From positions 77,030-141,029 of the forward strand of contig JABILX010000003.1 of NCBI GenBank assembly GCA_018654255.1: a stretch of 64,000 nucleotides of DNA, in the 5' to 3' direction. A program made the position numbers and the translations under genes. Of the stretch, positions 32,432 to 59,373 are shown one piece after another. Every line of letters starts with the position of its first letter. Within the stretch, counting starts at the first letter, position 1. This DNA is from Candidatus Peregrinibacteria bacterium. GTDB lineage: Bacteria; Patescibacteriota; Gracilibacteria; UBA1369; LOWO2-01-FULL-3. The notes under the pieces were generated by a model. That model was not told the DNA's origin, did not search any database, and was given only the letters and a program-made list of their open reading frames with translations.

Positions 32432-33805
32432 CTACACACCTTTATAAACTATAGCTGGATTTTCAATAGCGGCTTGTGCAACCAAAACGTTTTCGTCCTT
32501 AGCAAGTTCTGACAAGACTACTCTTGGTGTTTGATGATTTTCGGCAACGGCTCTTCTTACTTTATAAGACTCATGACTAGCTAGCTTTCTAAGAGTTGAC
32601 TTAGGTGTATTATCATTATAAGCAACACTCATTAGAACATTTTTAGATTTGTCTTTCGAAGCTACATCAGCCAATCGAGAAGGCGAATTCAATCTCGCCA
32701 CAACCATAGCCCTAACATCATCAGCCTTGTCACTTAACAAATGATTTGAAACGAAAATAGAGTCCAAATGATAATTTCTCGCTAAATTAAATCTCACTTT
32801 CTTAGAAGAATCTTTTACTAATTTTTTTGCAACAGGTTTTGTAATCTGGTGATTTGATGCCACAGAAGCTCTAACTAATTCAGACTTATCCCCAGCAAGT
32901 AAAAGCAATAGGTTTTCTGGAGTAGAGTTCATTGAAGCAATGATTCTCCTAACCTGTTCATCCTCACTATGTGCATTTTCAAATAGAAAATCCGGATCAA
33001 CACGTCCTCCTTCATCTTGCAATTGATCATCAACGTCATCCATAAATTTCTGAGCCTCTCTAGACAACTTACGTCTTTCCATAGCCTTCACAAAGTTTTT
33101 ATTTTCCTCCAAAGCATTAAGAACCATAAGATCCTTTTCTTTATCATACATAGTAACAAGAATTTTCTCTCTAGTCTCAGGAGATTTAGCAACAGCAGTT
33201 CTAACCTCAGCATCTTTATCCTCAGAAAGAAGTACTTGAGCATCATAAGCATATCTAAACTCTTTGTTTGAGGCAATAGCACACCTCACACTCGCACTCT
33301 TATCTTTTGCAAGCATCTTGAGAAGCTTTTCAGATATAGAAAAATTCTCCGCAACATTTTTCCTAACAGCATCTTTCTTATCCATCGCTAACTTCTCCAA
33401 CGTTACTTGGGCAGTATGTGGATTTTTTGCTACAGCAGCCCTCAGTCTCCAATCAGGACTATCTGAAAGCGCATAAAAATATTCTTGAGAAAGCTTGACT
33501 TTTGAAACCTTATCGTAGACCTCTTTTACAAAGTCATCTCTAACCTTTCCCAAAGATTTCACCATTTCCTTGAGCTCTTTCTTGGCTTCCTTCGGAGATC
33601 CAAATAACTTTTTCAGTAATTCAGGTCCCTGCTTCGGAGATCCAAATAACTTTTTCAGTAATTCAGGTCCCTGCTTCGGAGTCTTAGCTGACTTGCTTGG
33701 AGCTTTATTTGCAGAAAAAGGTCCTCCTCTAGGAGAAACTTGCATCCCAAAGACAAGCCTTTGTGGAACGACTAGGTCCACATTGAAATCATTTTGTTTT
33801 TCCAT
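32432..33805 (-). CDS. Leucine-rich-repeat-variant / HEAT-like repeat protein
   Basis: Many repeats of the form LxxLAxDKxxxVRxAVAxNxxTP; tandem KQGPELLKKLFGSP near N-terminus. Confidence 0.75.
   Translation of the reverse strand: MEKQNDFNVDLVVPQRLVFGMQVSPRGGPFSANKAPSKSAKTPKQGPELLKKLFGSPKQGPELLKKLFGSPKEAKKELKEMVKSLGKVRDDFVKEVYDKVSKVKLSQEYFYALSDSPDWRLRAAVAKNPHTAQVTLEKLAMDKKDAVRKNVAENFSISEKLLKMLAKDKSASVRCAIASNKEFRYAYDAQVLLSEDKDAEVRTAVAKSPETREKILVTMYDKEKDLMVLNALEENKNFVKAMERRKLSREAQKFMDDVDDQLQDEGGRVDPDFLFENAHSEDEQVRRIIASMNSTPENLLLLLAGDKSELVRASVASNHQITKPVAKKLVKDSSKKVRFNLARNYHLDSIFVSNHLLSDKADDVRAMVVARLNSPSRLADVASKDKSKNVLMSVAYNDNTPKSTLRKLASHESYKVRRAVAENHQTPRVVLSELAKDENVLVAQAAIENPAIVYKGV
33591..33674 (-). 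repeat. Perfect 2 x 42-bp tandem repeat inside the LRV-like gene
   Basis: TTCGGAGATCCAAATAACTTTTTCAGTAATTCAGGTCCCTGC at 33591-33632 and 33633-33674. Confidence 0.95.
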
Positions 33806-35205: not shown

Positions 35206-36138
35206 ATGTCATTCATTAAAGACTTTAAAAAACTGTACTGGGCCACTCCTCAAGTCCAAAACTGGACCCGTCAAAGTGAAAACTGCGACTACGGAGACAT
35301 CATTGTCGTATCAAAAAATTCATTCCTCTGTTTCAACAGCTCAAACCTGGAAAACTGCTATTATTGCTACTCATCTCGCAAAAACGAAGACTGCGGAGAC
35401 TGCCTATTCATCGAAAAGTGCAACCTCTGCTACGAATGCGTGGACTGCACACGTTGTTTCAACTCAAACTACCTGCAAAACTGCGAAAATTGCAGCGATT
35501 GCTCTCATTGCTACGACTGCAAATCCCTCGATAATTGCTTCGGATGCGTCGGCACATACCACAAACAATACTCAATCTTCAATAAACACTATAAACGCAA
35601 CGAATACCTGAAAAAGCTCAAAGAAATTCAAGCCTGGCCTCAAAAACGCATAGCCGAAGAAGTCGAAAAACTTCGCCTCAAATGGCCCCACATATACATG
35701 CATCAAGTCCACACTACGAACTGCCAAGGCGATTACGTAAATCACAGCAAAAACTGCTACTGGACCTTCGATTCATTCGAGTGCGAAGACTGCCTCTATA
35801 TCACAGAAGCATGCCTAGAAAGAGGGTGCAAGGACTCCGTGGACTGCGGCCCAATCGTAAATACCCTCGAACAATGCTACGACTGCTGTTTCTGCGGATA
35901 TCTCCACGAATGCAGCCACATCTACTGGGCCGATTGGATCTCAGACTGCCACTGGTGCACAAACATCTGGGACTGCAAAAACTGTTTCGGCTGCGATTAC
36001 TTAAAAAACAAGGAATACCACATTCTGAACAAACCCTACTCAAAAGAAGAGTACGCCCGCCGCATCAAAGACCACAAAAAAGAACTTCTCGAAGCCGGAA
36101 TTCAAGACTTCTATGGGTTGGTACACGGGGAACCTTAA
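35206..36138 (+). CDS. Cys-rich solenoid-like protein P1 (no zinc ribbon)
   Basis: About 35 Cys in 310 aa; two modules each ending FGCxxLxxKxYxIxNKxYxxxEY. Confidence 0.85.
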   Translation: MSFIKDFKKLYWATPQVQNWTRQSENCDYGDIIVVSKNSFLCFNSSNLENCYYCYSSRKNEDCGDCLFIEKCNLCYECVDCTRCFNSNYLQNCENCSDCSHCYDCKSLDNCFGCVGTYHKQYSIFNKHYKRNEYLKKLKEIQAWPQKRIAEEVEKLRLKWPHIYMHQVHTTNCQGDYVNHSKNCYWTFDSFECEDCLYITEACLERGCKDSVDCGPIVNTLEQCYDCCFCGYLHECSHIYWADWISDCHWCTNIWDCKNCFGCDYLKNKEYHILNKPYSKEEYARRIKDHKKELLEAGIQDFYGLVHGEP

Positions 36139-36141
36139 GTC

Positions 36142-36786
36142 CTAGCCATCCTCTCTATCAAGAACTGAGCCTGAATCAGTAGCTACCTTCTCACCCTCCC
36201 TAGAAGCAACTGGGAATAAACCCCTAGCCTCGTCAAGAAGAGGAGCCAATCTGCCTTTAAGAGCCTCCACATCAACAACAGAAGCACTACCTTTTCCTAA
36301 AAGACCAGCAACCTCCCCAACAATAGAAGACTGTATCTCTTGAATTTTAGCAAAAGCGTCTGCTCTCTCTCTCAATTCCTTCAATTTCGCCGGAACACCA
36401 TTAGTCATAGCCTTATATTCACCAAGAGTCTGTCCAACCATTCCTAAAGCACTCCTAACACATCCGAGAGCAAACTTTAACCCAGCCTCTTCATCGCCAC
36501 AAATCCCTTGAAGCGCTATCGAAGAAAGAGTCTGAGTCAAACGACTCACCTCCCCAACAAAAACATCAACAACAGCCTGAGCTTGATCACCATATTGGGA
36601 AACCTCTCCAGCCAATCTCTCAGAAAGACGCCTTTCCAAAGCAAGAGAATCAGAAGACCACCCTTGGTCAACATACAAAACACCTATTGCCGTCCTAAAC
36701 TCACGCTCATCAAAAACCTTTTTCTCAACACCTCCATCAAGAGAACCCCCTGCATCTGGCCCATCAGACATTCCATTATCAGCCAT
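36142..36786 (-). CDS. Unknown helical protein
   Basis: ATG at 36786 (MADNGMSDGPDAGG) preceded by AT-rich leader; upstream part of the track ORF looks non-coding. Confidence 0.55.
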   Translation of the reverse strand: MADNGMSDGPDAGGSLDGGVEKKVFDEREFRTAIGVLYVDQGWSSDSLALERRLSERLAGEVSQYGDQAQAVVDVFVGEVSRLTQTLSSIALQGICGDEEAGLKFALGCVRSALGMVGQTLGEYKAMTNGVPAKLKELRERADAFAKIQEIQSSIVGEVAGLLGKGSASVVDVEALKGRLAPLLDEARGLFPVASREGEKVATDSGSVLDREDG

Positions 36787-36915
36787 TTTTATTTGGTTAT
36801 AAAACTTAGGAGAAATAAATACCACACCAAACCTTTCCAAACAAGCGCAAAACCTTGCCTCAAGCCATATTATATTGCAAACTCCTAAACGTGAAGACAC
36901 TGTAGCAAGAGATTA

Positions 36916-37194
36916 CTACCCAGCTCGATGAACCACCACATCTAAAACCCTTTCAACGTCTCTCTTAACAGAAAGTCGAGCAGGCCTCAAAGACGCTCCA
37001 TTAAGATCATTGGTAACCCTGTTTAACTTATAAATTCCTTCTCCATCCCCTTCTTCAACAACCCAATCATCAAATTCATACTCATCACCACCACGACGAG
37101 CCCTTTCCAATTCAACCCTAACCGCTAAAATAACGGTCAAAGGATCCATTCCCAAATTTTCTCCTAATTGATTACAAGCTGCTTCTAATCGCAT
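36916..37194 (-). CDS. Unknown ~92-aa protein, family A member 2
   Basis: RLEAACNQLGENLGMDPLTVILAVRVELERA..YEFDDWVVEEGDGEG resembles 33896-34273. Confidence 0.6.
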   Translation of the reverse strand: MRLEAACNQLGENLGMDPLTVILAVRVELERARRGGDEYEFDDWVVEEGDGEGIYKLNRVTNDLNGASLRPARLSVKRDVERVLDVVVHRAG

Positions 37195-37267
37195 AAATAT
37201 TAAAGTTAAAAATTGTGTTGGCACCGATTATATTGTAAAATTACAATCTGTAAAGCCCCCAATCAAA

Positions 37268-38884
37268 ATGCCACAAGACAAAACCTGTAAAACCTGCTCC
37301 CAATCATTCAGGATCGCCTCAGAGGACGAGCGCTTTTACAAACTCTTCGACGCACCCCACCCAACAAAATGTCCCCAATGCCGCATGATCCGCCGTCTCC
37401 TCGAACGAAATACCAGAACTCTATATACAAGAAAATGCGACGCAACAGGCCAAGAGATAATCTCTCAATACCACGAAGACCACCCATTCCCCGTCTATTT
37501 TTACGAATACTGGTGGAGTGACAAATGGGATGCAAAAAAATACGCCCAAGACATCGACTGGAACAAACCTTTCTTTCCACAATTTGACGAACTAAGAAAA
37601 CGCGTCCCCCACATGTCCGCACACGTTATTGGCCCAACCCTAATTAACAGCAGATACACAAATTGCACAGGATACATCAAAAATTGCTACCTAACCTTCG
37701 AAGCCGATCACAACGAAAACTGCTACTACTCAAATCGAATCTACCACTCCCTAACTTGCGCAGACTGTCTCAATATCTTCAAATGTGAACTCTGCTATGA
37801 ATGTATCGACTGCAGCAATTGCTACAACCTACGATACAGTAATGACTGTGAAAACTGCATCGACAGTTACTTCCTCAGCAACTGCAAATCGTGCAAAGAC
37901 TGCATAGGATGTATCAATCTACGTCACGCCCGATACCAAATCTTCAACGAACAATACACAGAAGAAGACTACAAAGCCAAACTCAAAAAATATGACCTCG
38001 AAACCCTCGAAGGCCGCGCCACTCTCGAGAAAGAAGCCACTGAATTTTTCGCCACGCACCCCCACCGAAACCTTCACGAAGAACTAAACGAAAATTCACT
38101 CGGAGACTATTTATATAATTCAAAAGACGCATACTATTGCTTCGACTGCCGAGACCTGGAAGACTGCCGCTACTGCTCCCGAGTCTCAATGGGCGTAAAA
38201 AACTCAATGGACTACACCGCTTGGGGATCGTCGTCAGAAATGATGTTCGAATGCGCTGCATGTGGTGACCAAAGCTACAATCTAAAATACTGCTCAACCT
38301 GCACAAGCAGCAACTCAGATCTAGAATATTGCCTTCAATGCACAGGCTGCAAAAACTGCTTCGGCTGCATAGGCTTAAACAGAGAAAAGTATTGCATCTT
38401 TAACAAACAATTCACCAAAGAAAAATACGAAGAAACCGTTACCCGCCTCAAAAAACACATGCACTCTACAAAAGAATACGGCGAATTCTTCCCTTCTGAA
38501 ATTTCTGCTTTTGGATACAATGAATCCCTCGCTCAAGAACTCTTTCCTCTCAAAAAAGAAGAAGCCCTCGCCAAAGGCTATCAATGGACAGAGCGCGAAA
38601 AACCAACCCACAACTCATCCAACAAAAAAAATCTCACCTGTACCTCTTGCGACCAAGACTTCCGCACAACAGAACCCGAACTCAAATTCTACAAACAACA
38701 AAACCTCCCTATACCAGAAAAATGCTTCAACTGTCGTCACGAAGAACGTGCAAACAAAAGAAACCCTAAATTCTTCTGGGATCGAAAATGTGACAAATGC
38801 AACACAGAAATCAAAACAACCTATCCACCCGAGACAAAACATCCAATTTACTGCTATGATTGTTACAAAAAAGAGATAAATTAA
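37268..38884 (+). CDS. Cys-rich solenoid-like protein P2 with N- and C-terminal zinc ribbons
   Basis: N-term CKTCSQSFRIASEDERFYKLFDAPHPTKCPQCR; C-term CTSCDQDFRTTEPELKFYKQQNLPIPEKCFNCR (zf-trcl-like); Cys-rich repeats between. Confidence 0.85.
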   Translation: MPQDKTCKTCSQSFRIASEDERFYKLFDAPHPTKCPQCRMIRRLLERNTRTLYTRKCDATGQEIISQYHEDHPFPVYFYEYWWSDKWDAKKYAQDIDWNKPFFPQFDELRKRVPHMSAHVIGPTLINSRYTNCTGYIKNCYLTFEADHNENCYYSNRIYHSLTCADCLNIFKCELCYECIDCSNCYNLRYSNDCENCIDSYFLSNCKSCKDCIGCINLRHARYQIFNEQYTEEDYKAKLKKYDLETLEGRATLEKEATEFFATHPHRNLHEELNENSLGDYLYNSKDAYYCFDCRDLEDCRYCSRVSMGVKNSMDYTAWGSSSEMMFECAACGDQSYNLKYCSTCTSSNSDLEYCLQCTGCKNCFGCIGLNREKYCIFNKQFTKEKYEETVTRLKKHMHSTKEYGEFFPSEISAFGYNESLAQELFPLKKEEALAKGYQWTEREKPTHNSSNKKNLTCTSCDQDFRTTEPELKFYKQQNLPIPEKCFNCRHEERANKRNPKFFWDRKCDKCNTEIKTTYPPETKHPIYCYDCYKKEIN

Positions 38885-38889
38885 ACACA

Positions 38890-39813
38890 ATGCCAACCCC
38901 AGACTTCCAAACCCAATACAAAACCTTAGTCCACGCTTCCCCGCACCTCTCAACACACATCTACCTGTGCACGAACTCTGATTACTCAGACCAACTCAAC
39001 GAATCCAAAAACGCATACATCTGTTTCAACGGATACGGACTTGAGGATTGCATGTACAATTTCGACTCACGCTGGAACAAGGACTGCGCCGATCTAAGCT
39101 ACACAAACAAATGCACCCTCTGCTACGAATGCGTCGACACCGAAGACAGCTACAACTGCAATAAACTCCAGGATTGCGAACACTGCAGAGATTGCTCATA
39201 CTGCTTTGATTGTTTTGGATGCTCAGACTGTTTCGGTTGCGTAGGACTACGAAAAGCCACTCACCACATCTTCAATAAATCAGTCGACAAAAAAGACTAC
39301 CCAGAAGCCCTCACAAAAGCAAAACGACTCACCGAACAACGAATCTATTCCGACCTCGAAAATCTCCGCCTCAAAAACCCACATGTCGCAATGCGAACAA
39401 GACGCTCAGAAAGCTGCTTCGGCAACTACATCTACGACAGTAAAAACGCCTATTACACCTTCAAGTCACACGAACTTCAAGACTGCATGTACATGTACGA
39501 TTCCCGCGGCATGAAAGACTCCGTTGACATCGGCATGCTCCACAAATCCACTCTTATGTACGAATGCATCGAAGCCACCGAAAACTACAACTGCAATTTC
39601 ATTTACTGGTGCGCCAACTGCAACGATTGCGAATACATCATGTACTGTTTCAACTGCGACTACTGCTTCGGCTGCTTCAACCTGAAACACAAACGCTTCC
39701 ATATCTTGAACGAACCGTATGAAGAAAAGGAATATTTTGCTAAAGTCAAAGAGATCAAAAAAGCACTACGAGAACAGAACAACTACAAAAATTTCTTACC
39801 GGATATAATCTAA
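38890..39813 (+). CDS. Cys-rich solenoid-like protein P3 (no zinc ribbon)
   Basis: ATG 38890 (MPTPDFQTQYKTLV); same two-module layout, FGCVGLRKATHHIFNK and FGCFNLKHKRFHILNE. Confidence 0.83.
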   Translation: MPTPDFQTQYKTLVHASPHLSTHIYLCTNSDYSDQLNESKNAYICFNGYGLEDCMYNFDSRWNKDCADLSYTNKCTLCYECVDTEDSYNCNKLQDCEHCRDCSYCFDCFGCSDCFGCVGLRKATHHIFNKSVDKKDYPEALTKAKRLTEQRIYSDLENLRLKNPHVAMRTRRSESCFGNYIYDSKNAYYTFKSHELQDCMYMYDSRGMKDSVDIGMLHKSTLMYECIEATENYNCNFIYWCANCNDCEYIMYCFNCDYCFGCFNLKHKRFHILNEPYEEKEYFAKVKEIKKALREQNNYKNFLPDII

Positions 39814-39820
39814 ATTAATC

Positions 39821-40084
39821 ATACCAACAATAACCCAACTCCAAAAAGAAATAGACGCCCTAAAAGAACGAAACCACCGAGTCGAAGAAGACAAAGCTTG
39901 GGAAACCAGTTGGACCAGACGCATCATCATACTCGGACTCACATATCTAGTAATTTTAGTCTTTTTCCTAATATCAAATCTACCAGATCCATATTTGAAT
40001 TCAATAGTACCAACAGCAGCATTCATACTTTCAACTTCAAGCTTACCCCTCTTCAAGAAAATTTGGGTAAAATTTAAAAAATGA
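39821..40084 (+). CDS. Small membrane protein ORF lacking ATG/GTG/TTG start
   Basis: ATA-initiated reading: (I/M)PTITQLQKEIDALKERNHRVEEDKAWETSWTRRIIILGLTYLVILVFFLISNLPDPYLNSIVPTAAFILSTSSLPLFKKIWVKFKK*; stop overlaps P4 start as ATGA. Confidence 0.5.
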   Translation: MPTITQLQKEIDALKERNHRVEEDKAWETSWTRRIIILGLTYLVILVFFLISNLPDPYLNSIVPTAAFILSTSSLPLFKKIWVKFKK

Positions 40085-41358
40085 CCGAAAAAACCTGCAA
40101 AAACTGCACCTCCCCCTTTGAAGTCACACAAGAGGACCAATCTTTTTACAAACGCCTCAAAGTCCCACCCCCAACCTTCTGCCCAACCTGCCGCCTCCAA
40201 CGCAGGCTCGCCTGGCGTAACGAACGCCACCTCTATAACAACACGTGTAAAAAATGCGGAACAAACATTATTGCCCTCTACCAAAAAAACACCGAATACA
40301 CCGTCTACTGTCAAAAATGCTGGTGGTCTTTCGACTGGGACCCACGTCAATACGCACAAGAAATCAACTTCAACCGTCCATTTTTCGAACAATGGGGAGA
40401 ACTATTCAAAAAAGTTCCCGTAATCAACCTCAACAATGAACGCACAAGTATGGTCAACAGCGATTATTGCAATTACGTAACCGACGCCAAAAACTGCTAC
40501 CTCGTATTCGCTGCAAACTTCCTCGAGGATTGCATGCACAGCGACTATATTTGGGAATCAAAAGACACCGTCGACTGCAGCAATTCAACCGCGCTCGAAC
40601 TATGCTACGAATGTACAGACTGCGACCGATGCTACAATTGCAACTACGTAACAAACTCACAAGGATGCTCAGACTGTCACCTAGGATACGATCTCAAAAA
40701 CTGCGACAACTGCTTCGCCTGTGTCCAACTCAGAAACAAACGATACCACTTTCTCAATAAAAAACTCGAAGAAGAAGAATACAAAAACCGCGTGAAAAAA
40801 ACCTTAGCCAACCCCACACTCCTCGCCCAAACCCAAAAAGAATTCGAAGAACTCAATCTAGAACATCCCCGCGAATACACCAGACAACTCCGCTGTGAAA
40901 ACAGCACCGGAAACGCAATAAAAAACTGTAAAAACTGCCACTCTTGCTTCGAAGGATACGGAGGAGAAGATCTCAAATGGGTCGACAACTTCCCAGGCGA
41001 CACAAAAGACAGTTACGACATCTCGGGCTGTGCGGAAATCCAACTCTGCTACGACTCAGCCTGCGTCGGCCTACCCGCATACAACATGCGATTCTGCAAT
41101 ATGATCCTAAACGGCGGCCGCGACATGACCTACTGTGCATTCATGGATGTAGGCCGCGAACAATTCGGCTGCATCGGTACAAAAAAAGCAAAACACTGCA
41201 TACTAAACAAACAATATTCAAAAGCAGAATACGAACGCCTCGTCCAAAAGCTCATCGCCCACATGACCGAAACCGGCGAATGGGGCGAATTCTTCCCAGC
41301 AGAACTCTCACCTTTCAAGTATGAAGAAACTGTAGCTAATTTGTATTTTCCACGTTAG
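40081..41358 (+). CDS. Cys-rich solenoid-like protein P4 with N-terminal zinc ribbon
   Basis: CKNCTSPFEVTQEDQSFYKRLKVPPPTFCPTCRLQRRLAWRNE; Cys modules; C-term TGEWGEFFPAELSPFKYEETVANLYFP. Confidence 0.85.
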   Translation: MTEKTCKNCTSPFEVTQEDQSFYKRLKVPPPTFCPTCRLQRRLAWRNERHLYNNTCKKCGTNIIALYQKNTEYTVYCQKCWWSFDWDPRQYAQEINFNRPFFEQWGELFKKVPVINLNNERTSMVNSDYCNYVTDAKNCYLVFAANFLEDCMHSDYIWESKDTVDCSNSTALELCYECTDCDRCYNCNYVTNSQGCSDCHLGYDLKNCDNCFACVQLRNKRYHFLNKKLEEEEYKNRVKKTLANPTLLAQTQKEFEELNLEHPREYTRQLRCENSTGNAIKNCKNCHSCFEGYGGEDLKWVDNFPGDTKDSYDISGCAEIQLCYDSACVGLPAYNMRFCNMILNGGRDMTYCAFMDVGREQFGCIGTKKAKHCILNKQYSKAEYERLVQKLIAHMTETGEWGEFFPAELSPFKYEETVANLYFPR

Positions 41359-42167
41359 GAGAAATTATCTATAGTCCTAGCCAGAATTTTCAGAATCCCT
41401 TTCCCACTTCCTTTTTCAATACCTTTATACTCAGCAACATACAATAAATAAACAAGCTTATTCAACAAAGTAACAAAAGTCTTTTCCGTTATTTTTTCTT
41501 GCCTTTCTTCTACCAAAGATAGAACCCCTGCCACAAACTCCGACCGTCTCCTAATACTCGAAATTGTAATCCCAAAAGAATTCTTAAAAGAATTCATGAC
41601 CTTCACTATTTCTGATTTAACCACAGACACAGGGATAAGTTGTTCTCCCAAAGGGAATTTCATCAAATCTTTAGAGTCAGGCAACGATTCATTCTTATCA
41701 AAAATATAATTTCCAAGAGAAAAACCTACGGTAGACATCGGTGCCGGAGCCACAATCAGAGGACTAAAACCAACATAACGCCGTTTCCATGGCATTCTCA
41801 CCTGACACATTGCATAAACTTCCAATGATTCTTTAAACAAAAGCATGTATTCATGTACATCCATAAAAAAACTATCTACTTGCTCCTGGTCAGAAAAATC
41901 TATTTTGACAGAAGCTTCAATTATTGCTGATTTGACACTTTTATAAGTCAAATCCATATCAGGAATATTTTCCCCCATAATTCTAGATAACATCAAGTCA
42001 ACAGAATGAAACCACTGTGCACAGCTTTTTTCAACACATCTTTCAACCTCCATACTTTCAATAACTTTAACCCTTTCAGCCTTTTGAGATTTACCAACAA
42101 GACGCACAGACTTTAAACGAGACTGAGCTTCCTCCTTTCTTGGTTCCTGTTTTTCAAACTCTTCCAT
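41355..42167 (-). CDS. Unknown protein
   Basis: Intact 270-aa ORF; no recognised family. Confidence 0.6.
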   Translation of the reverse strand: MEEFEKQEPRKEEAQSRLKSVRLVGKSQKAERVKVIESMEVERCVEKSCAQWFHSVDLMLSRIMGENIPDMDLTYKSVKSAIIEASVKIDFSDQEQVDSFFMDVHEYMLLFKESLEVYAMCQVRMPWKRRYVGFSPLIVAPAPMSTVGFSLGNYIFDKNESLPDSKDLMKFPLGEQLIPVSVVKSEIVKVMNSFKNSFGITISSIRRRSEFVAGVLSLVEERQEKITEKTFVTLLNKLVYLLYVAEYKGIEKGSGKGILKILARTIDNFS

Positions 42168-42265
42168 ATTATTTTTTTACAAAGACACTTGAAAGACACA
42201 ATCACACATACATTACACAATGTTTTCACCAAAAAAGCAACACCCTCGAGTCTCTCTACAACAAG

Positions 42266-42544
42266 CTAATCCCCCACATTTTCCACTTCCTCATAAACCT
42301 TAGACCTGTGCTTAATAGCCAAAACCCTCACAACCTTTCCAACTATTTTAAAAACAACCCGATAATCCCCTACTCTCAAACTTCGATAACCTTTAAGAGA
42401 CCTCCTAAGAGGCTTTCCAAATGTTTCCGGCGCTGACACAAGCTTACTTTCAATACTTTTTCTCACTCTATCCTTTTCCTTTTTTCCAAGACGAGGAATA
42501 TCTTCTCTCACAACAAGCCCATGGTATTCAATCGAATATATCAT
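42266..42544 (-). CDS. RelE/ParE-superfamily toxin
   Basis: MIYSIEYHGLVVREDIPRL..PLRRSLKGYRSLRVGDYRVVFKI.GKVVRVLAIKHRSKVY. Confidence 0.85.
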   Translation of the reverse strand: MIYSIEYHGLVVREDIPRLGKKEKDRVRKSIESKLVSAPETFGKPLRRSLKGYRSLRVGDYRVVFKIVGKVVRVLAIKHRSKVYEEVENVGD

Positions 42545-42762
42545 GACCAAGCTTTATCATGAGAAATATATTTAGCCTTTTCAGTATCACGCTCTTCCGC
42601 AACCATATTGAGCATATCTGCCTCATCAATCTCAATCGCAATCTTAACAAGCTCACTTGCTTTAGTAGCGACAGGGACATTATCCCTATCTGCAAGCAAC
42701 TCCAAAGCTTTCTCAATTTCCTCAGAAAGTGTAATATTTACACGCTTTTTTGTAGTAGGCAT
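42541..42762 (-). CDS. Ribbon-helix-helix antitoxin
   Basis: MPTTKKRVNITLSEEIEKALELLADRDNVPVATKASELVKIAIE; ATGA overlap with the downstream toxin. Confidence 0.8.
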   Translation of the reverse strand: MPTTKKRVNITLSEEIEKALELLADRDNVPVATKASELVKIAIEIDEADMLNMVAEERDTEKAKYISHDKAWS

Positions 42763-42813
42763 AAAATTTAGTTTAAATTACCACAAAACCAGTGTAACAC
42801 AAGTGTATCACCT

Positions 42814-44085
42814 ATGTCAACAGCCAATATCTGCAAAACCTGCTCCGCCCCCTTCCAAATCACCTCAAAAGATGAAGAATTCTACAAACACTTAAAAGTC
42901 CCTCATCCAACACTCTGCCCAGCCTGCAGTAGCCAACGCCGCCTCGCGTACCGAAACGAAAACTGTCTACACAAAAACACCTGCCACCTCTGCAAAAAAC
43001 CAATGATATCAGTTTTCCATAAAAACACCCCTTACACAGTCTACTGCAACAATTGCTGGTGGTCAGACAAGTGGGATCCCATGGACTATGGCAAAAAACC
43101 AGACTTCAGCAACCCATTTTTCAACCAATTCTACAAACTCCAAAAATCAATCCCCCACTTCACACTCTTCCAAGACGGTACCTCAGAAAACTGCGAATAC
43201 ACAAATTTCGGCCTCTTCAACAAAAATTGCTACATGTCTATGTGTGGATACAGTGAAGACATTTACTACTCGTCGGTGATAATTAAATCAAAATCCTGCA
43301 TGGACTGCAAAAGAGCATTCTCTTGCGAACTTTGCTATGAATGTATTGAGTGTGACACCTGCTACAACCTAGACTTCGGAAAAGATTGCGCAAACTGCGT
43401 AGACAGCCAATTTCTCGAAGACTGTATAGGATGCAACCACTGCTTTTGTTGTGCAGGACTACGCCACAAAAAATACTGCTTCCAAAACAAACAACTCACA
43501 CGCCAAGAATACGAAAAACGTTTAGCCAAAACAAAACCCCTAGACACTAAACATTGGCAAACCCAACTCACAAACCTTGCCCAATCCGTCCCAAAAAACT
43601 ATATGCACGGCAACACCAATGAAAATTCAACCGGCAACTACTTAAACAATACAAAAAACTGCACCGAATGCTTCGATTGCGGCCACATGGAAGACTCAGC
43701 GTATTGTGATACCTGCGGACTTCAGGTCAAAGACGCATACAGAAGCACAAATTGCGGAGTAGGATCAGAACTATGCTATGAAGTAAACGGCGTAACCGCC
43801 CACCACAATTGCATCGCAATCTATTTTGCACGATCCCTATCAGATTGCCAATATTGCCAATACTGCTTCAACTCAAAAGACCTCTTCGGTTGCATCGGCC
43901 TCAACCAAAAACGCTACTGCATATTTAACCGTCAATACACAAAAGAAGAATATCACCAAACACGCAAACGCCTAATCACCCACATGCTAGAAACCGGTGA
44001 ATACGGAGAATTCTTCCCAATAAAAAACTCTCCATACCCATACAAAGACACTGTTGCAATGGATTATTTTTCAAAACAAACCTAA
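42814..44085 (+). CDS. Cys-rich solenoid-like protein P5 with N-terminal zinc ribbon
   Basis: CKTCSAPFQITSKDEEFYKHLKVPHPTLCPACSSQRRLAYRNE; WWSDKWDPMDYG; two Cys modules; C-term TGEYGEFFPIKNSPYPYKDTVAMDYF. Confidence 0.85.
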   Translation: MSTANICKTCSAPFQITSKDEEFYKHLKVPHPTLCPACSSQRRLAYRNENCLHKNTCHLCKKPMISVFHKNTPYTVYCNNCWWSDKWDPMDYGKKPDFSNPFFNQFYKLQKSIPHFTLFQDGTSENCEYTNFGLFNKNCYMSMCGYSEDIYYSSVIIKSKSCMDCKRAFSCELCYECIECDTCYNLDFGKDCANCVDSQFLEDCIGCNHCFCCAGLRHKKYCFQNKQLTRQEYEKRLAKTKPLDTKHWQTQLTNLAQSVPKNYMHGNTNENSTGNYLNNTKNCTECFDCGHMEDSAYCDTCGLQVKDAYRSTNCGVGSELCYEVNGVTAHHNCIAIYFARSLSDCQYCQYCFNSKDLFGCIGLNQKRYCIFNRQYTKEEYHQTRKRLITHMLETGEYGEFFPIKNSPYPYKDTVAMDYFSKQT

Positions 44086-45269
44086 AACCTCGGCCCATCA
44101 GGATCTCCAGCAATATCATTGTGCCAATCACCTTCAACAACCTTAGGCTTTCTCGAATGCACCTCCACAAGAGGCTTAGTATGATCATAGTCCTCCGGCG
44201 GACTATCGTCACGAGGACCCCTTATCAAATCCTCCATTCCAAGCTCATCATGCAAACACGCCAGAATAGCATCAGAAACATTTTTCGAAACCTGTTGAGT
44301 TGGTTTAGCAAGCCTTCTGCCTCCAGGTTTAGCAGGATCTTCAATAGTAGCTCTCAGCTCTCCAAATTCAGGAATCTTAACAATATTCGCAAACACTCGC
44401 CCTCCAGGAACAAGACGCTTAACCTCTTCACGAACCCAAAAACGATAACTTTCAGCAGTTTCTTCTTCAGCTAACCCAATACTATCTGGACCATTCATAT
44501 CTTCTGTATCAGCACCCTCAGATAATTTGAAGGGCGAAGTTCTAGGAGTAAAGTGAACAGCAATACTATCTGGATCCTTCATGTCTTCTGGATCAGCACC
44601 CCAAGATAATCTAAAAGGCAAAGTTCTAGGAGTAAAATGAACAGCAATATCCTCTCCCTCACTCAAAGAAATATCATGACAACTACCCTCATCCTCAATC
44701 AAAAACTGATCAGCATTCAATTTTGAAACAACTTCCACGAATTCCGCCTTTTTCTCCTCATTCATATCATAGAGTTGAGCAGCCAAAAGCAGAGACGGAC
44801 ACCTCACACGAAGGCGCGACAAATCGACCCCTCTCGCCTCTAAAATTTCAACAATTTTTGGTAAATTTCTTGTCACAAAACGATCAACTACAATCACCCC
44901 TTCCTCAGGAATTTCAAACCCATCTCCAAAACAAGCCTCAACATCGCTACTCGGCGCATCATTAGCCCCATATCCTCTGAAACCAGTAAGAACTCTGTGA
45001 ACATTAAATACTAACTCTGCCGCATCGTACAAACCCCCATCAATCATACTCTGAAATAAAGCCTGTGCTCTTACCTGATGTTCATGAGCTTTTTTATCCA
45101 CAACCTCATCACTCTCATCATCATTAACGTTCAATTGCTTTAAATAATCAACCAACATAACCTTGGTCGATTCATCAAAATCAACTTCATTAGCATAATC
45201 TTTAATCCAACCCCCAGGCTCTTCGAACATCCAGTGATCCGTTATTTTTCCCTCAATAGTTGTTTCCAT
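44082..45269 (-). CDS. Unknown protein with internal tandem repeat
   Basis: Intact 395-aa ORF with promoter upstream. Confidence 0.6.
   Translation of the reverse strand: METTIEGKITDHWMFEEPGGWIKDYANEVDFDESTKVMLVDYLKQLNVNDDESDEVVDKKAHEHQVRAQALFQSMIDGGLYDAAELVFNVHRVLTGFRGYGANDAPSSDVEACFGDGFEIPEEGVIVVDRFVTRNLPKIVEILEARGVDLSRLRVRCPSLLLAAQLYDMNEEKKAEFVEVVSKLNADQFLIEDEGSCHDISLSEGEDIAVHFTPRTLPFRLSWGADPEDMKDPDSIAVHFTPRTSPFKLSEGADTEDMNGPDSIGLAEEETAESYRFWVREEVKRLVPGGRVFANIVKIPEFGELRATIEDPAKPGGRRLAKPTQQVSKNVSDAILACLHDELGMEDLIRGPRDDSPPEDYDHTKPLVEVHSRKPKVVEGDWHNDIAGDPDGPRF
44477..44644 (-). repeat. Imperfect 2 x 84-bp tandem repeat inside 44082-45269
   Basis: CAATACTATCTGGA...AAAGTGAACAG unit starts at 44477 and 44561; encodes IAVHFTPRT(L/S)PF(R/K)LS.GAD.EDM..PDS twice. 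Confidence 0.85.
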
Positions 45270-50036: not shown

Positions 50037-50815
50037 ATCCATTAGAAAAATCCAAATCTCACGACAAATCCCCTGACAAAGCCCCAAAAAAACCTCGCAA
50101 ACACATACGAAAAGCAGGTCAGTTAGATCGCAACGAAATGTCTGAACTTTTCAAAATGGCCCAGCTCGGGAATCAACCTGAATGGTTTCCAGAACACCTC
50201 CATATCACAATCGACGACGGCCCATACCCACACCACCTCAAAAAGATATTACAAGTACTCGACAGACACAACGTAAAGGCAACTTTCTTCCTGATAGGCT
50301 CAATGATCGAGAGCCAGTACAGAAAAGATCCAAAAGGAACCCGTAAACTCTTGTTAAAACTTCTCAACAAAGGACACGAAATCGGCTACCACAGCTACAA
50401 CCACTGCCACAACCAAAGAGTAAAAAACTGCGGAGGAAAAACATTCGAAAGTCTCAGCGCAAAAGACATCGAATATGACATAGAAAAATTCAAAGAAACG
50501 CTAGAGAAAGTCCTCGAGATCTGTTACATAGTAAAGATCGGCCGCACACCAGGAGGAAAAGGACGAACCCGTAGAGCCGTAAGTGACGCCTTCAGAAACC
50601 AAAATTTAGAAGTACACAAACATTGGCACGATGAACCTGCCCGAAGAGAAAGGCCAAGAGACCCAAAAAAATACCACGAACTCAAAAAAGACCACATCCT
50701 TCTCTTCCACCAAAAAAAAGAAACAGCAAAAGAACTAAACGATCTCCTCCACAAAATCCGCAGAAACGAGCCCCCTCCTACAACACCTTCGCCAAATCCT
50801 CCTTCATCGCAATAA
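50033..50815 (+). CDS. Polysaccharide deacetylase (NodB-like) family protein
   Basis: HITIDDGPYPHHLKKILQVLDRHNVKATFFLIG, GHEIGYHSYNH. Confidence 0.83.
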   Translation: MNPLEKSKSHDKSPDKAPKKPRKHIRKAGQLDRNEMSELFKMAQLGNQPEWFPEHLHITIDDGPYPHHLKKILQVLDRHNVKATFFLIGSMIESQYRKDPKGTRKLLLKLLNKGHEIGYHSYNHCHNQRVKNCGGKTFESLSAKDIEYDIEKFKETLEKVLEICYIVKIGRTPGGKGRTRRAVSDAFRNQNLEVHKHWHDEPARRERPRDPKKYHELKKDHILLFHQKKETAKELNDLLHKIRRNEPPPTTPSPNPPSSQ

Positions 50816-51743
50816 CAGCTTCACGAGCCGCATCCGCATAAGCTTCCGGACCCCGAGACTCATCCTTTTCATAAGCAAAAGTAATTCCACGCGACGAGTT
50901 CACTATAGCTCCAAGACCATCGTCGTTGAAACAAGGCTTAACATCAGCAGCTCCCCCACCTTGAGCTCCATATCCAGGAACCAAAAAATACACACCAGGC
51001 ATAATTGCACGCAAAGCCTTCGCCTGTTCAGGGAAAGTTGCACCAACAACAGCTCCAACGTTGCTATATCCACTGTCTCCTACACTATCTGCACCCCAAC
51101 TATCAACGTAATACCCCATCACTTCATACAAAGGCAACGCATCCTTCTTCCCACCTTTTACCACATCACCAAGCACAGCCAAATCCTGCAAATCCGCAGA
51201 TGATTTGTTAGAAGTCTTAACTAAAATAAACAACCCTTTCCCATCCTCAGTCGCAACCTTAATAAAAGGAGCAACTCCATCCAAACCAAGATACGCATTT
51301 ACAGTCACACTATCCGCATCAAAAACTCTCATAGACTCCTCCTCAACAGCCGTCTCACCAAGATACGCTTTCGCATACGCCTCGGCAGTCGATCCGATAT
51401 CATTTCTCTTCACATCCGCAATCGTAATCAACCCTTTCTCATGAGCATAATCCAAAGTCTCTTGATACGCACGCATCCCCTCAAATCCAAAAATCTCGTA
51501 AAAAGCAACCTGCGGTTTAACAACAGGAACCAAGTCCGCCACCCCATCGATAATCCCCTTATTAAATTCAATGATCGCCTCAGCAGCCGCCCTCAAGGGA
51601 TTCTTCAAATTCTCCTCCGCCTTAAAAGCCTTCTCCCTAATAAACTCAGGAATCTGTTTAAGCCGAGGATCCAGCCCAACACAAATCGGCGTCCCCTTCT
51701 TTTTAATAGCTTCTATCATTCTATCTGTGAAATGTTTTTGCAT
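50778..51743 (-). CDS. pyrF: Orotidine-5'-phosphate decarboxylase
   Basis: ICVGLDPRLKQIPEF, ITIADVKRNDIGSTAEAYAKAYLG, VPGYGAQGGGAADV. Confidence 0.95.
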   Translation of the reverse strand: MQKHFTDRMIEAIKKKGTPICVGLDPRLKQIPEFIREKAFKAEENLKNPLRAAAEAIIEFNKGIIDGVADLVPVVKPQVAFYEIFGFEGMRAYQETLDYAHEKGLITIADVKRNDIGSTAEAYAKAYLGETAVEEESMRVFDADSVTVNAYLGLDGVAPFIKVATEDGKGLFILVKTSNKSSADLQDLAVLGDVVKGGKKDALPLYEVMGYYVDSWGADSVGDSGYSNVGAVVGATFPEQAKALRAIMPGVYFLVPGYGAQGGGAADVKPCFNDDGLGAIVNSSRGITFAYEKDESRGPEAYADAAREAVIAMKEDLAKVL

Positions 51744-51798
51744 GTGAAAGTTTGTTTAAGTTCTCTCGCCCCCTTTTCGCAAGAGAGTATAGCAAAAC

Positions 51799-52764
51799 TT
51801 AAGACCGACCACTAGATCTATCTCTCCTCCTAACGGGAGGTGGCTCACGCTTAAGCCTGTAACAATCATATCCACACGCTTCCAATCTAGGCTTATAAAT
51901 CTTACAAATCCCTTTGATTTCGCCCGAATCTCTCTCTGGATCAAGTAAACTTCTCCAGTACTCAAAAAAATCTCTAGCATCTCGTCGATCCCAATCACCA
52001 TTCTGCATAAACGTCTCAAAAACAGTTATTCTAGCAAAAGACCCATCAGTATTAGCCAAAAGATCTTTAAAGAAAGACATCGGTAACTTCAATTTTTTTC
52101 TTGCCTGAGCAACCCAAGCAGAAATCTCAGCAGACTTCGTCTCACTCTCAGCAGACCTTACTCCACCTTCAGTATTAGAATCCTTACAAATCATCTCAAA
52201 CCAAGCCAAAACAACATCCTCATTTATCTTCACCCCATCCTCGGCCATCATCCAAAGCACATACTTCCTATGATCAAAATCCTTACAAACCTTGAACCAA
52301 TTCAGAAAGAAATTAGTATCCGGCTTATGCCCTTTTAGCTTCATCCTATCTCTAAAAGCACCAAAAACTTCGAAACACTCTTCTTCACCATGAGTCTCTG
52401 ACACCACACTGACCACAAAATTCAACTTAATCAAAAAACTAAACCGCCTTTGCAAATCCCGCACACTCTTCCCAAGAGAATCCAATTTGTCACACTTAGA
52501 AGTCCATGCAAACTCACTTAATCTAGTAACATCCGTAGAGATACCACTAATCAAATCATTAATATCCCCACACTCAATCTCCAAATCAGGGTCACCACCT
52601 TCTTTCAAAAGAGGATACTTAGCAAAAAACTCACAAACACTCGGAATTCCCTCAGCAACCCAAGTCTTCATTTCCTCCAAAACCTTTTTGGTATCTTCAC
52701 AAAGATCCGAACAAACTTCGTTCTCAACCATCCCCCATCTGATTTTCTCACCTCCATCTAGCAT
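51799..52764 (-). CDS. Unknown protein
   Basis: Intact 321-aa ORF with promoter; no recognised family. Confidence 0.6.
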   Translation of the reverse strand: MLDGGEKIRWGMVENEVCSDLCEDTKKVLEEMKTWVAEGIPSVCEFFAKYPLLKEGGDPDLEIECGDINDLISGISTDVTRLSEFAWTSKCDKLDSLGKSVRDLQRRFSFLIKLNFVVSVVSETHGEEECFEVFGAFRDRMKLKGHKPDTNFFLNWFKVCKDFDHRKYVLWMMAEDGVKINEDVVLAWFEMICKDSNTEGGVRSAESETKSAEISAWVAQARKKLKLPMSFFKDLLANTDGSFARITVFETFMQNGDWDRRDARDFFEYWRSLLDPERDSGEIKGICKIYKPRLEACGYDCYRLKREPPPVRRRDRSSGRS

Positions 52765-52788
52765 ATTGACACAATAAAAATGGAGGTT

Positions 52789-52818
52789 ATTCTAACCTGA
52801 TAAACTCATAATTGTCAA
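52789..52818 (-). promoter_or_regulatory. Sigma70-type promoter for 51799-52764
   Basis: Minus strand TTGACA, 18 nt, TAGAAT. Confidence 0.6.
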
Positions 52819-52825
52819 CAAAGCT

Positions 52826-53494
52826 CTACGCAAACCCATGCTTCTCTCCCCACCCAGCAGTATCTTCTTTGAAATCCATAACAGTTTCGTACATTTCCTC
52901 TGAAATATCGCCTCTTTCACGAGCCAACCCAATCAAGTCAGTAAACCCAGTCAAATTAGTAAGCCGAATCTCAGCTTCAGCGAACCTATCAGCAGACTTC
53001 TGAAGCTCCCAACTCACAATCGCAAAGATATCAGTCACAGTCCCATTCGCCTCACGCACAGCTTCCGCCGCCTTCACGCTCGATCCACCCGTAGAAATCA
53101 AGTCCTCAACTATCAAAACTTTCTGCGCCGATTCAAGATATCCTTCAATTTGCTTCCCAGCACCATGCTCCTTTTTTTCAGGTCTAATATAAATCATCGG
53201 AAGATCCATTTTCTGCGCCAAGAAAGCTGCCCAAGGAATCGCAGCAGTCGCAGTCCCTCCAATCACATCAGGCATATCCATCTCCCCACGAGCAACCTTC
53301 GTCTCAACCAACTCCTTGAAAGTATCAACAACAGACTCCCTCTCTTCAGGAAAAGAAATCATTTTTCTATTATCACAATAAACAGGCGACTTGATTCCAC
53401 TAACCCAAGAAAAAGGCGGATCAACTTTCACCATTACAGCTTTTTTATCCAAAAGGTTTGTCGCGATCTTTCGCGAAATTTCATTTGAGTCCAT
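52826..53494 (-). CDS. pyrE: Orotate phosphoribosyltransferase
   Basis: VLIVEDLISTGGSSVKAAEAVREANG PRPP motif; start MDSNEISRKIA. Confidence 0.93.
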   Translation of the reverse strand: MDSNEISRKIATNLLDKKAVMVKVDPPFSWVSGIKSPVYCDNRKMISFPEERESVVDTFKELVETKVARGEMDMPDVIGGTATAAIPWAAFLAQKMDLPMIYIRPEKKEHGAGKQIEGYLESAQKVLIVEDLISTGGSSVKAAEAVREANGTVTDIFAIVSWELQKSADRFAEAEIRLTNLTGFTDLIGLARERGDISEEMYETVMDFKEDTAGWGEKHGFA

Positions 53495-53530
53495 ATTAGT
53501 TATTTTAAATTTTAGAAAAGCCAAAATAAT

Positions 53531-54355
53531 TTACCACTCAACTTTCTTCCCCATAGAATCCCTATGATACTTCCCAAATTCACTAAACCCCAAAGCCCTT
53601 TCCCCATCAAACACAGTACCTTCCTTGCAAACACAAACTCCGGTTTCATCCACACAACACTGTCCACAAACTCCAAATCCACATTTCATATATCTCTCAA
53701 GTGCCAATTCGCTTTTGATCCCTTTATCACGCGCAATCTCAGCCGCTCTCTTCATCATCATTTCAGGTCCACATGCATAGATTTTCGAAACACCTTCACC
53801 ATCTTTTGAAGCAATAATCTCCTCAAGAATCTCAGTATTATATCCTTCGTGTCCCTTTGAACCATCATCAGTTGCAGCATGATAAGTCACGTTAGAACCA
53901 AGAGCAGAAACCCTTTCCTCGTAAAGCAAAAGATCCTCGCTCCGGGCTCCAACAACAAAATCCACCTTACACCCATCCTCTACAGCAGCTCGCGCCAATC
54001 CATACAAAGGAGCAGCCCCATATCCACCCGCCAACAAAACCAAATGCTTACCCTTTTCCCACTTATAATGAGTCCCAAAAGGTCCTCGAATTCCAATCAA
54101 ATCTCCTTCTTTTAATTTAAATAATTCCTCAGTTGCAGATCCAACCTTTGCAATCGTCAGCCAAAACTCCTTCCCATCGTCATACGCAATCGAAAACGGT
54201 TTCTCATCTACGCCAGGAATCCAAAGCATCAAAAACTGCCCAGGCTTACTCTCCAAGTTATATTCAAACTGGAAAGTCCAGATAGTATCTGTCTCCTTCA
54301 CGATCTTCTTGATCGGAATCGTTTCCGGTATTGTATTGAAATTCTTTACGTCCAT
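53531..54355 (-). CDS. pyrK: Dihydroorotate dehydrogenase electron-transfer subunit (PyrK-like)
   Basis: FAD/NAD domains (LLAGGYGAAPLYGLAR, CGPEMMMK) and 2Fe-2S Cys set CGFGVCGQCCVDETGVCVC. Confidence 0.88.
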   Translation of the reverse strand: MDVKNFNTIPETIPIKKIVKETDTIWTFQFEYNLESKPGQFLMLWIPGVDEKPFSIAYDDGKEFWLTIAKVGSATEELFKLKEGDLIGIRGPFGTHYKWEKGKHLVLLAGGYGAAPLYGLARAAVEDGCKVDFVVGARSEDLLLYEERVSALGSNVTYHAATDDGSKGHEGYNTEILEEIIASKDGEGVSKIYACGPEMMMKRAAEIARDKGIKSELALERYMKCGFGVCGQCCVDETGVCVCKEGTVFDGERALGFSEFGKYHRDSMGKKVEW

Positions 54356-54412
54356 TTTTATTCCTGTTATCTCCCGAACTCGGCTACCCCCTTTACCTAA
54401 GTCCGAACTTAA

Positions 54413-55366
54413 CTATTTAATACTTCCAATCAAATCCCCCACAACCTCAACCCCATTCGCATCACACCAATCACCCATTTCTTTCACAACCTCACCAAAA
54501 CCACCAACCTCTCTATAATAAACCATCGTCCCCATCCCAACCAAAGTCGCTCCAGCCATCATCATCTCGATAGCATCCTCTCCAGTCATCACTCCTCCAG
54601 TTCCAATTATCGGCAACCCCGTCGCTTTATGAATATCATTAACAGCTTTCACCGCAATAGGTTTGATAGCAGGCCCACTCACTCCTCCAACTCGATTCGC
54701 CAAGATCGGCTTACGAGTCTTCAAATCTATAACCATCCCAGGCCCAACAGTATTGATCGCACAGAAACCATCCGCTCCTTCATCAGCACAAGCTTTCGCA
54801 ATTCGTCCAATATTTGGAACATTAGGAGATAACTTCACAATCATCGGAATCTTCGATCCCAACTCATCCAACTTTCGACGAACAACCTTCGTCACATCAG
54901 CCGCCAGAAGTAAATCACAAGCAAAAGGTATTCCAAACTCATCCTCAACATTCGGACAAGATATATTTACTTCAAGAATGTCGGGTCGCGACTTCACAAT
55001 CTCCTCAGTCAAATCCGCAAACTCACTCTGTTTTCCAGCAACAATACTCGCAATCACCGGCGCCGGCCGTACATTCTTCGCACCAGACCCCGCTGGCTCT
55101 CCATACTCAGCAAACAACCCTCGAGCCTTCTCAATCCCCGCATCACTCAACCCAACCGCATTCAAGAAAAAGTGCTCAGTCCCAAACATCGTTGGATTCT
55201 TGTGTCCTTTATGTTCTTCCATCCAAATCGATTTCGTCGTAACCCCTCCAGCTCCCATCTCCACAACTCTCTTCAAAGACGCAGAAGTAACCCCCAAAAC
55301 ACCCGACGCAAGAACAGTTGGGTTCTCAAACTCTACGCCACAGAAATTTACTTTTAGGTTTGCCAT
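54413..55366 (-). CDS. pyrD: Dihydroorotate dehydrogenase, class 1B-like catalytic subunit
   Basis: NPTVLASGVLG, EVNISCPNVEDEFG, GTGGVMTGEDAIEMMMAGA; start MANLKVNFCGVEF preferred. Confidence 0.93.
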   Translation of the reverse strand: MANLKVNFCGVEFENPTVLASGVLGVTSASLKRVVEMGAGGVTTKSIWMEEHKGHKNPTMFGTEHFFLNAVGLSDAGIEKARGLFAEYGEPAGSGAKNVRPAPVIASIVAGKQSEFADLTEEIVKSRPDILEVNISCPNVEDEFGIPFACDLLLAADVTKVVRRKLDELGSKIPMIVKLSPNVPNIGRIAKACADEGADGFCAINTVGPGMVIDLKTRKPILANRVGGVSGPAIKPIAVKAVNDIHKATGLPIIGTGGVMTGEDAIEMMMAGATLVGMGTMVYYREVGGFGEVVKEMGDWCDANGVEVVGDLIGSIK

Positions 55367-55427
55367 CGCCCAAAGTTTATCAGACATACTCTTTATTTTA
55401 AACACAATTTTTGGTAGGATCTCCCCC

Positions 55428-55997: not shown

Positions 55998-56193
55998 CGA
56001 AAGAAAACAAACTAAACTCCTTCCACTCCTAACTTCAAAAGCCCTAATCCCAAGTATAAAAGCAGGTAGATTCAAAATAAGACTATTCAAACAAATTAAA
56101 CAAGAATTAGAAGAAGTTTTATAACAACGACGGAAGAACCATAACAACAATACTCGAAATTCTCCGCTCCCTTTAGCCTCCCCAAACCTGCTC

Positions 56194-56221
56194 TTGACTT
56201 TTCCCTCATCCCTGTTATAGT
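56194..56221 (+). promoter_or_regulatory. Sigma70-type promoter for pyrB
   Basis: TTGACT (56194-56199), 16 nt, TATAGT (56216-56221). Confidence 0.7.
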
Positions 56222-56245
56222 ACCGACGACCCTAAAACCACACAA

Positions 56246-57256: not shown

Positions 57257-57268
57257 AAGCACTCAATA

Positions 57269-59289: not shown

Positions 59290-59373
59290 CCCCACCACGT
59301 CAACCACCCTTAACCTGTAAAAGTCACCACGTGGTGACTTCCCAACCTGTGAAATATCGGAAATAGAAAACCT

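Follow-up and report, generated by a model that had tools for sequence, protein, structure and literature searches.

The Tenebrio-type insect antifreeze protein (PF02420) is a secreted, disulfide-bonded protein with a 12-residue turn and regularly placed cysteines. Both of these features recur in the solenoids of five proteins, here called P1 to P5, whose genes lie in a 64,000-nucleotide stretch (the window, C3:77030-141029) of a 1.24-Mb, 9-contig Patescibacteria (Peregrinibacteria-like) genome. A sequence-only reading of this window had described them as a five-gene family of cysteine-saturated, solenoid-like proteins. The likeness to the antifreeze protein is one of working principle. Unlike that protein, the P1-P5 family has no export signal and no body cysteine pairs that are lost together; PF02420 matched none of P1-P5 at E<=1 and none of 42 members at E<=1e-3, and no antifreeze protein stood among the Foldseek matches listed.

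The sole database family covering the body of these proteins is phrog_15341, of uncharacterised function, which has the same cysteine lattice and matches all of P1-P5 (E 6e-12 to 3e-5) and the body of 36 of the 42 members. We infer that phrog_15341 includes the short cysteine-lattice proteins (124-142 residues) of the Campylobacter T4-like phages CP220 (L210:4887-5258) and CPt10 (L209:4905-5330), in the latter of which the annotators recorded insect-antifreeze repeats. These phage proteins differ from the P1-P5 family in having a single solenoid and no zinc fingers, and in lying beside phage genes. Comparison of the family with Campylobacter phage proteins by tblastn gave weak matches (best E 8e-4, at a relaxed threshold), and none in phages at 1e-5. 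One T4-like IMG/VR contig carries at its edge a 42-residue solenoid-cap motif (L132:5838-5966), divergent from the tail sheath gene; this fragment may reflect the assembly edge. With such weak relatives and this one fragment as the only traces, a phage origin was rejected.

The termini of the longer members resemble the zinc fingers zf_Tbcl (PF13451) and zf_Tbcl_2 (PF23477)/TIGR04272, and their four-cysteine sites are lost as a set. These similarities are weak, at E 1e-3 to 1e-6, and for the window proteins they stay under the Pfam cut-offs: the C-terminal part of P2 gave E 3e-4 with zf_Tbcl (20.9 against 24 bits) and E 1e-4 with zf_Tbcl_2 (22.1 against 27 bits). At E<=1e-3 the two profiles match 8 and 16 of the 42 members, and LIM-type zinc-finger proteins weakly match the C-terminal fingers among PDB sequences (E 0.006). 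Cysteine-rich extracellular proteins have been reported from Ca. Peribacter, among the relatives of Peregrinibacteria; they average 1,655 residues and mostly have signal peptides (PMC4736985), whereas the present family spans 300-620 residues without signal peptides. No characterised enzyme matched the body in Pfam, NCBIfam, PADLOC or PDB sequences, and PADLOC returned no match for the family proteins. The literature searched, which covers the field in part, so that an earlier mention elsewhere is possible, holds no description of the family or its module.

A second group of known proteins concerns the motor found beside the family, which shares its ATPase core and fold with the VirD4/TraG coupling proteins and VirB4 (TrwB, TrwK). 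Type IV secretion systems are widespread in Patescibacteria, where 5,713 VirD4 homologues were counted in 2,918 genomes, most of them far from virB4 and with no substrate named; in Gracilibacteria, VirB6 is scarce or absent and other components are not associated with virB4 (PMC12102498). Because the P1-P5 family travels with one dedicated motor enzyme of this type, we tentatively regard its members as target-recognising parts of an unrecognised machine in these tiny symbiotic bacteria.

Distribution of the family

The five window genes are real, but five is an undercount: the source genome carries about 15 full-length copies, spread over four contigs and some ten places. Two copies in it have an internal stop or a shortened frame (C3:171387-172655 and C9:40147-41154) and are possibly decaying. 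When GTDB species contigs were scanned, at least 545 loci could be confirmed, and 78 of these were retained for study. These are overwhelmingly from Patescibacteria (Peregrinibacteria, Peribacteria, Gracilibacteria, Paceibacteria and others), in line with the earlier suggestion that such proteins recur without known function in genomes of the candidate phyla radiation (CPR). The family is therefore large and undescribed, with hundreds of loci beyond the source genome. Among 287 evenly drawn Patescibacteria genomes it occurs in 24 (in one as a finger-sized match only) and is absent from 263, genomes typically holding many copies or none. Despite the tiny genomes of Patescibacteria, members that possess the family are thus rich in copies.

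Copies are arranged in head-to-tail, same-strand arrays. The most extreme array (G289:C1:1-40000, loci L217 and L218) packs 20 family genes, all on the same strand, into 36.6 kb. Its gene junctions measure about 0, -21 or 8 bp, and an unrelated ATPase-like insertion is the single interruption. It ends in a shorter ATPase without a membrane helix, with rsmI- and metG-like genes (named by eye) close behind. Full-length members mostly have 540-620 residues. Their architecture is uniform apart from one domain fusion, an in-frame N-terminal GNAT acetyltransferase domain (L040:3806-5998), and the remaining N-terminal extensions seem mostly to come from frames called too long. At some loci, small zinc-finger frames adjoin genes that encode the body alone.

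Outside Patescibacteria, the family is present in 13 of 46 genomes of a second phylum, whose contigs bear the titles 'delta proteobacterium' and 'Bdellovibrionales'. G287, G304 and others of this phylum hold 25-30 or more scattered copies, mostly outside arrays; others have a single copy. Family-positive genomes here include some of 2.6-4.8 Mb. Contamination as the source of these non-CPR copies was rejected, since three contigs agree in composition with each other and not with CPR. A search of plasmids gave one zinc-ribbon match only.

An ATPase linked to the family by position and occurrence

Neighbour clustering at the 78 loci identified two widely recurring neighbours, and no others: a VirD4/TraG-type ATPase at 19 loci, mostly on the same strand, and a TrmB-type regulator at 14, often divergent. 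In the source genome, two of the four such ATPases adjoin family genes (on C9 and C1), and three of seven above-cut-off TrmB genes lie within about 1.2 kb of one. In another genome (G163), a short ATPase frame adjoins family genes. Neither neighbour, nor the operon-like arrays, formed part of the sequence-only reading.

The ATPase superfamily is near-universal (283 of 287 Patescibacteria genomes). The linked subfamily, of about 750 residues (E<1e-180), is present in exactly 20 of the 287 genomes; all 20 possess the family, against none of the 263 family-negative genomes. A hypergeometric estimate by hand puts this co-occurrence at about 1e-26, with relatedness of the genomes ignored; within the class alone, the counts are 18 of 18 against 0 of 8 (about 6e-7). 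A family gene lies within 1.5 kb of 18 of the 20 subfamily genes and within 181 bp of 14. Within 10 kb the family is found beside 19 of the 20, and besides it only TrmB recurs widely. Of the ATPases in the second phylum, the seven most similar (56-67% identity) all belong to genomes that possess the family, and some of them directly adjoin a family gene.

The linked ATPases carry PF02534 (35-40 bits against a cut-off of 20.1), DUF87 and TraG-D_C, and a Walker A motif, GKSGTGKS, is visible. A structural model (mean predicted local distance difference test score, pLDDT, 85.5) resembles VirB4 TrwK (E 6e-15) and VirD4 TrwB (TM-score about 0.65 by target), and next HerA structures (E about 4e-12); the PADLOC profile mad8 matches at 3e-13. 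Three features set the linked ATPase apart from VirD4: its position dedicated to the family, an N-terminal domain of its own and the lack of an N-terminal membrane helix, which is missing in 20 of 20 linked ATPases and present in all 13 paralogues examined (maximal 19-residue hydropathy 0.57-1.24 against 1.95-3.19). One linked ATPase bears a zf_Tbcl_2 finger, of the type found in the family.

At L261, L246 and related loci in the phylum of G287, pairs of VirD4/VirB4-type ATPases lacking the membrane helix lie close together or adjacent on one strand, with no solenoid family.

Predicted fold

Modelling of P2 with AlphaFold2 from a 140-row alignment gave a confident structure (mean pLDDT 91.8; predicted template modelling score, pTM, 0.91). 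Its order is N-terminal treble clefs, solenoid 1, a helical linker, solenoid 2, a helical segment and C-terminal treble clefs. DSSP shows solenoids with one bridge residue and one inward residue at every third position. Independently of the model, mutual information among 229 sequences is highest between residues 12 apart in solenoid 1 and 12-13 apart in solenoid 2, and a period of 12 implies four three-residue sides per turn. Model and coevolution thus agree on two short, quadrangular beta-solenoids with 12-13 residues per turn and an inside made mostly of cysteine, predicted in full-length members to be carried between zinc-binding treble clefs. The solenoid with stacked cysteines proposed from the sequence is borne out by this computation.

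Foldseek with the P2 model gave no match at E<=0.001, either to PDB entries or to viral models; those in the viral library fall on the zinc fingers. The left-handed hexapeptide beta-helix was likewise not matched, the best PDB entries being LpxD/GlmU at E>=0.015 and a probability of at most 0.16. A 12-residue, four-sided solenoid lined with free cysteines is unmatched in solved structures at E<=0.001.

Terminal and body cysteines differ

Cysteine makes up 8-11% of P1-P5. CxxC steps number 17, 23, 14, 13 and 18, against 3.8, 3.3, 2.3, 2.4 and 3.5 in composition-preserving shuffles, a four- to sevenfold excess. Cysteine pairs at lags 1, 2, 4 and 5, none of them a multiple of three, are nearly absent. 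The regular CxxC steps noticed earlier are thus part of a strict period-3 lattice, far from chance.

The terminal cysteines form four sets, and the members of each are mostly lost together across the family (phi 0.66-1.0). The exception is C57, whose phi with the rest of site B is just 0.36-0.37. In P2, site A (C7/C10/C35/C38) is complete and site B is reduced to C57, while the C-terminal sites are C458/461/486/489 and C508/511/529/532. In the body, the strongest cysteine pair reaches a phi of 0.41 and pairs stacked one turn apart average about 0.12; each body cysteine is exchanged on its own for Ser, Leu, Val, Ile or Thr and is tied to no particular partner cysteine. The terminal sets, and those only, behave as expected for zinc sites. 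The low phi and one-by-one replacement mean that the body cysteines are best read as exchangeable, buried packing thiols. The metal binding suggested earlier therefore probably holds for the treble clefs and not for the body, and covariation likewise speaks against a metallothionein-like store with fixed metal sites there. A metal or disulfide ladder as a conserved feature of the body was ruled out by the pattern of cysteine loss.

At the inward positions of solenoid 1, Cys accounts for 52% of the residues, followed by Ser (15%) and Leu (13.5%), with Ala at only 2%. Nearly all members are free of hydrophobic stretches that could serve as a signal peptide or membrane segment, which makes a reducing cytosol their likely location. 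By mean charge, the C-terminal zinc pair is basic (+6.4) and the two solenoid bodies are acidic (-3.7 and -1.8).

Old paralogues with contrasting evolution of bodies and ends

The sequence-only reading took five copies in one stretch as a sign of local expansion. Sequence comparisons contradict this. Over the common body, P1-P5 are 31-40% identical to one another, and the nearest relatives of each lie in a different genome at 51-60% identity (P1, 58% to L036 of Peregrinibacteria; P3, 55% to L028; P4, 60% to L070; P5, 51% to L095). For all copies of the source genome, the best paralogue inside it is 35-41% identical, against mostly 45-70% for distinct orthologues elsewhere. The nearest tree neighbour is on the same locus for 19 of 198 copies, against 4.4 expected. 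Some local duplication occurs, yet by the tree and best-match tests the arrays did not arise by it, and local duplication was ruled out as the origin of P1-P5, which are ancient paralogues. Repertoires are mosaic: every copy in the source genome finds its best relative in a different genome, and few sets were found to be shared.

Among 113 orthologue-like pairs (58-99% identity), 102 show less difference in the body than in the zinc ends, against 19 of 150 random pairs. In five syntenic pairs from two Peregrinibacteria, the ratio of non-synonymous to synonymous substitution rates (dN/dS) is 0.007-0.033 for the body and 0.10-0.35 for the ends; in the same genome pair, the ATPase fragment gave 0.009 and a superoxide dismutase-like gene 0.062. 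By these computations, solenoid bodies are strongly conserved within a lineage and are the most divergent part between lineages, and the zinc ends behave in the opposite way. This contrast suggests an invariant partner for each individual solenoid and a common purpose for the ends.

Possible role of the family

P1-P5 may be cytosolic recognition proteins, or subunits, of an undescribed gene module whose members share one motor; this is our preferred reading, held tentatively. With more reserve, we think it possible that the module forms a cytosolic machine in which one VirB4/VirD4-type motor without a membrane helix works with target-specific, cysteine-lined solenoid adaptors, up to twenty or more in a set that is particular to each genome. 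The machine would be patchy in Patescibacteria and present also in the second phylum. Each solenoid surface would bind one specific, conserved partner. The common zinc-finger ends would connect the solenoid to the common machine, most likely the ATPase, which would then act on the captured partner by translocation, unfolding or remodelling. Three points make the ends the natural candidate for a common interface: their presence throughout the full-length paralogues, the basic charge of the C-terminal pair and the occurrence of the same finger type in one linked ATPase. For members that consist of the body alone, such as P1 and P3, end domains would have to be supplied separately. The anatomy and the linkage are shown by computation; from them we infer ligands, direct contact with the motor and a part as adaptors. 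If correct, the family is a candidate set of partners for some of the thousands of Patescibacteria VirD4-type ATPases that lack a named substrate (PMC12102498), and the open question of VirD4 substrates becomes directly testable. The contrast between frozen bodies and divergent paralogues points to targets that are dedicated, conserved and within reach of isolation.

Several observations weigh against this reading. The window array has no adjoining ATPase, the ATPases of its genome being on other contigs, and the ATPase of G046 has no family gene within 10 kb. In the second phylum, related ATPases (<=52% identity, without the membrane helix) occur in about 20 family-negative genomes, and no ATPase match was obtained in several of the genomes with a single family copy. 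The contrast in dN/dS between body and ends is weaker in four pairs of single-cell genomes from one lineage, and reversed in one of them, and selecting pairs on their overall identity may enrich for those whose bodies are conserved. The association of family and ATPase is thus strong in Patescibacteria and not absolute everywhere, because distant helix-less relatives occur without the family in the second phylum.

Among the alternatives, the one that fares best, although we consider it unlikely, is that the family consists of substrates of a type IV secretion-like apparatus, with the VirD4-type ATPase as coupling protein and the zinc ends as export signal. The VirD4/TraG core, with PF02534 above its cut-off, the fold matches to TrwB and VirB4 and the zf_Tbcl_2 finger shared by one linked ATPase all fit this idea, as does the wide occurrence of such systems in Patescibacteria with most VirD4 homologues far from virB4 and their substrate unnamed (PMC12102498). 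The linked subfamily, however, lacks the membrane helix of its paralogues, and in Gracilibacteria the scarcity or absence of VirB6 and the lack of association of other components with virB4 (PMC12102498) fit poorly with export. Effector bodies, moreover, usually drift or diversify, whereas those of the family are extremely conserved.

Less probable again is a nucleic-acid machine, in which the family would guide a HerA-like DNA or RNA motor to specific sequences or structures in the service of defence, DNA uptake or the handling of RNA. The resemblance to HerA (DUF87, the HerA structures and mad8), the basic C-terminal zinc pair and the patchy, all-or-nothing distribution speak for it. The acidic solenoid bodies are hard to reconcile with such a role; unlike in HerA-NurA and known anti-phage systems, no nuclease, other effector or defence partner recurs beside the family-ATPase pair, and up to 20 co-directional paralogues match no known defence system.

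We find it improbable that the paralogues are distinct subunits of one large hetero-oligomer, such as a filament or shell, for whose building the ATPase would be needed. Twenty family genes with such tight junctions do resemble one operon, and the body surfaces are extremely conserved, but mosaic repertoires with few shared sets, and genomes with a single copy, argue otherwise.

The original proposal, a metal store or disulfide-rigid protein built on the solenoid cysteine ladder, now seems very improbable: the cysteine content, the regular CxxC steps and the preference for Cys over Ala at inward positions are countered by body cysteines replaced individually with no fixed partner, by the lack of a signal peptide and by body surfaces each conserved as though holding a specific ligand. 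A variable surface or antigen family produced by recent local duplication would account for paralogue arrays and a patchy distribution, and is hardly credible, being contradicted by the low identity of the best paralogues (no recent duplicates), a dN/dS far below 1 and the lack of an export signal.

The P1-P5 locus and its surroundings

The frames of P1-P5 are all open at the starts given by the sequence-only reading, and the cysteine count it gave for P1 is correct (Table 1). The five proteins, to which it ascribed a common pattern, align over the shared body; the complete architecture, with zinc fingers at both ends, is present in P2 only.

Table 1. Genes and domains of the P1-P5 array (window positions).
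Feature	Position	Strand	Basis
P1, body-only member: two solenoids, no zinc fingers, 310 residues, 35 Cys	35206..36138	+	Open reading frame (ORF), Cys lattice, phrog_15341 E=6e-12
P2, full-architecture member, 538 residues, 43 Cys	37268..38884	+	ORF, AlphaFold2 model
P2 residues 1-98, predicted N-terminal treble-clef pair	37268..37561	+	Joint Cys loss across family; helix/strand pattern
P2 residues 122-229, predicted beta-solenoid 1	37631..37954	+	DSSP on AlphaFold2 model; coevolution peak 12
P2 residues 265-383, predicted beta-solenoid 2	38060..38416	+	DSSP; coevolution peak 12-13
P2 residues 455-538, predicted C-terminal treble-clef pair	38630..38881	+	zf_Tbcl/zf_Tbcl_2 (below cut-off), joint Cys loss, charge
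P3, body-only member, 307 residues, 27 Cys	38890..39813	+	ORF, alignment
P4, N-terminal treble clefs and both solenoids, no C-terminal zinc pair, 425 residues, 33 Cys	40081..41358	+	ORF; zf_Tbcl E=0.001, below cut-off
P5, N-terminal treble clefs and both solenoids, no C-terminal zinc pair, 423 residues, 40 Cys	42814..44085	+	ORF, alignment

The array is flanked by a ribosomal-protein region and trmD (gene names by eye). Four minus-strand frames amid it (36142-36900, 36916-37224, 41355-42167 and 44082-45269) have no Pfam match at E<=0.01. Between P4 and P5 lies a gene for a ParE-type toxin (42266-42550, minus strand; PF05016, E 1e-8), beside which no antitoxin was identified. Just upstream of the array region, a gene on the minus strand (32432-33805) encodes a 457-residue helical-repeat protein, HEAT- or leucine-rich-variant-like as judged from its sequence. 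Farther downstream, at 50778-63802, we recognised by eye the pyrimidine biosynthesis genes pyrF, pyrE, a pyrK-like gene, pyrD, pyrB, pyrC and carA. Such genes are unusual for Patescibacteria; nucleotide synthesis has been reported for Peribacteria (PMC4736985).

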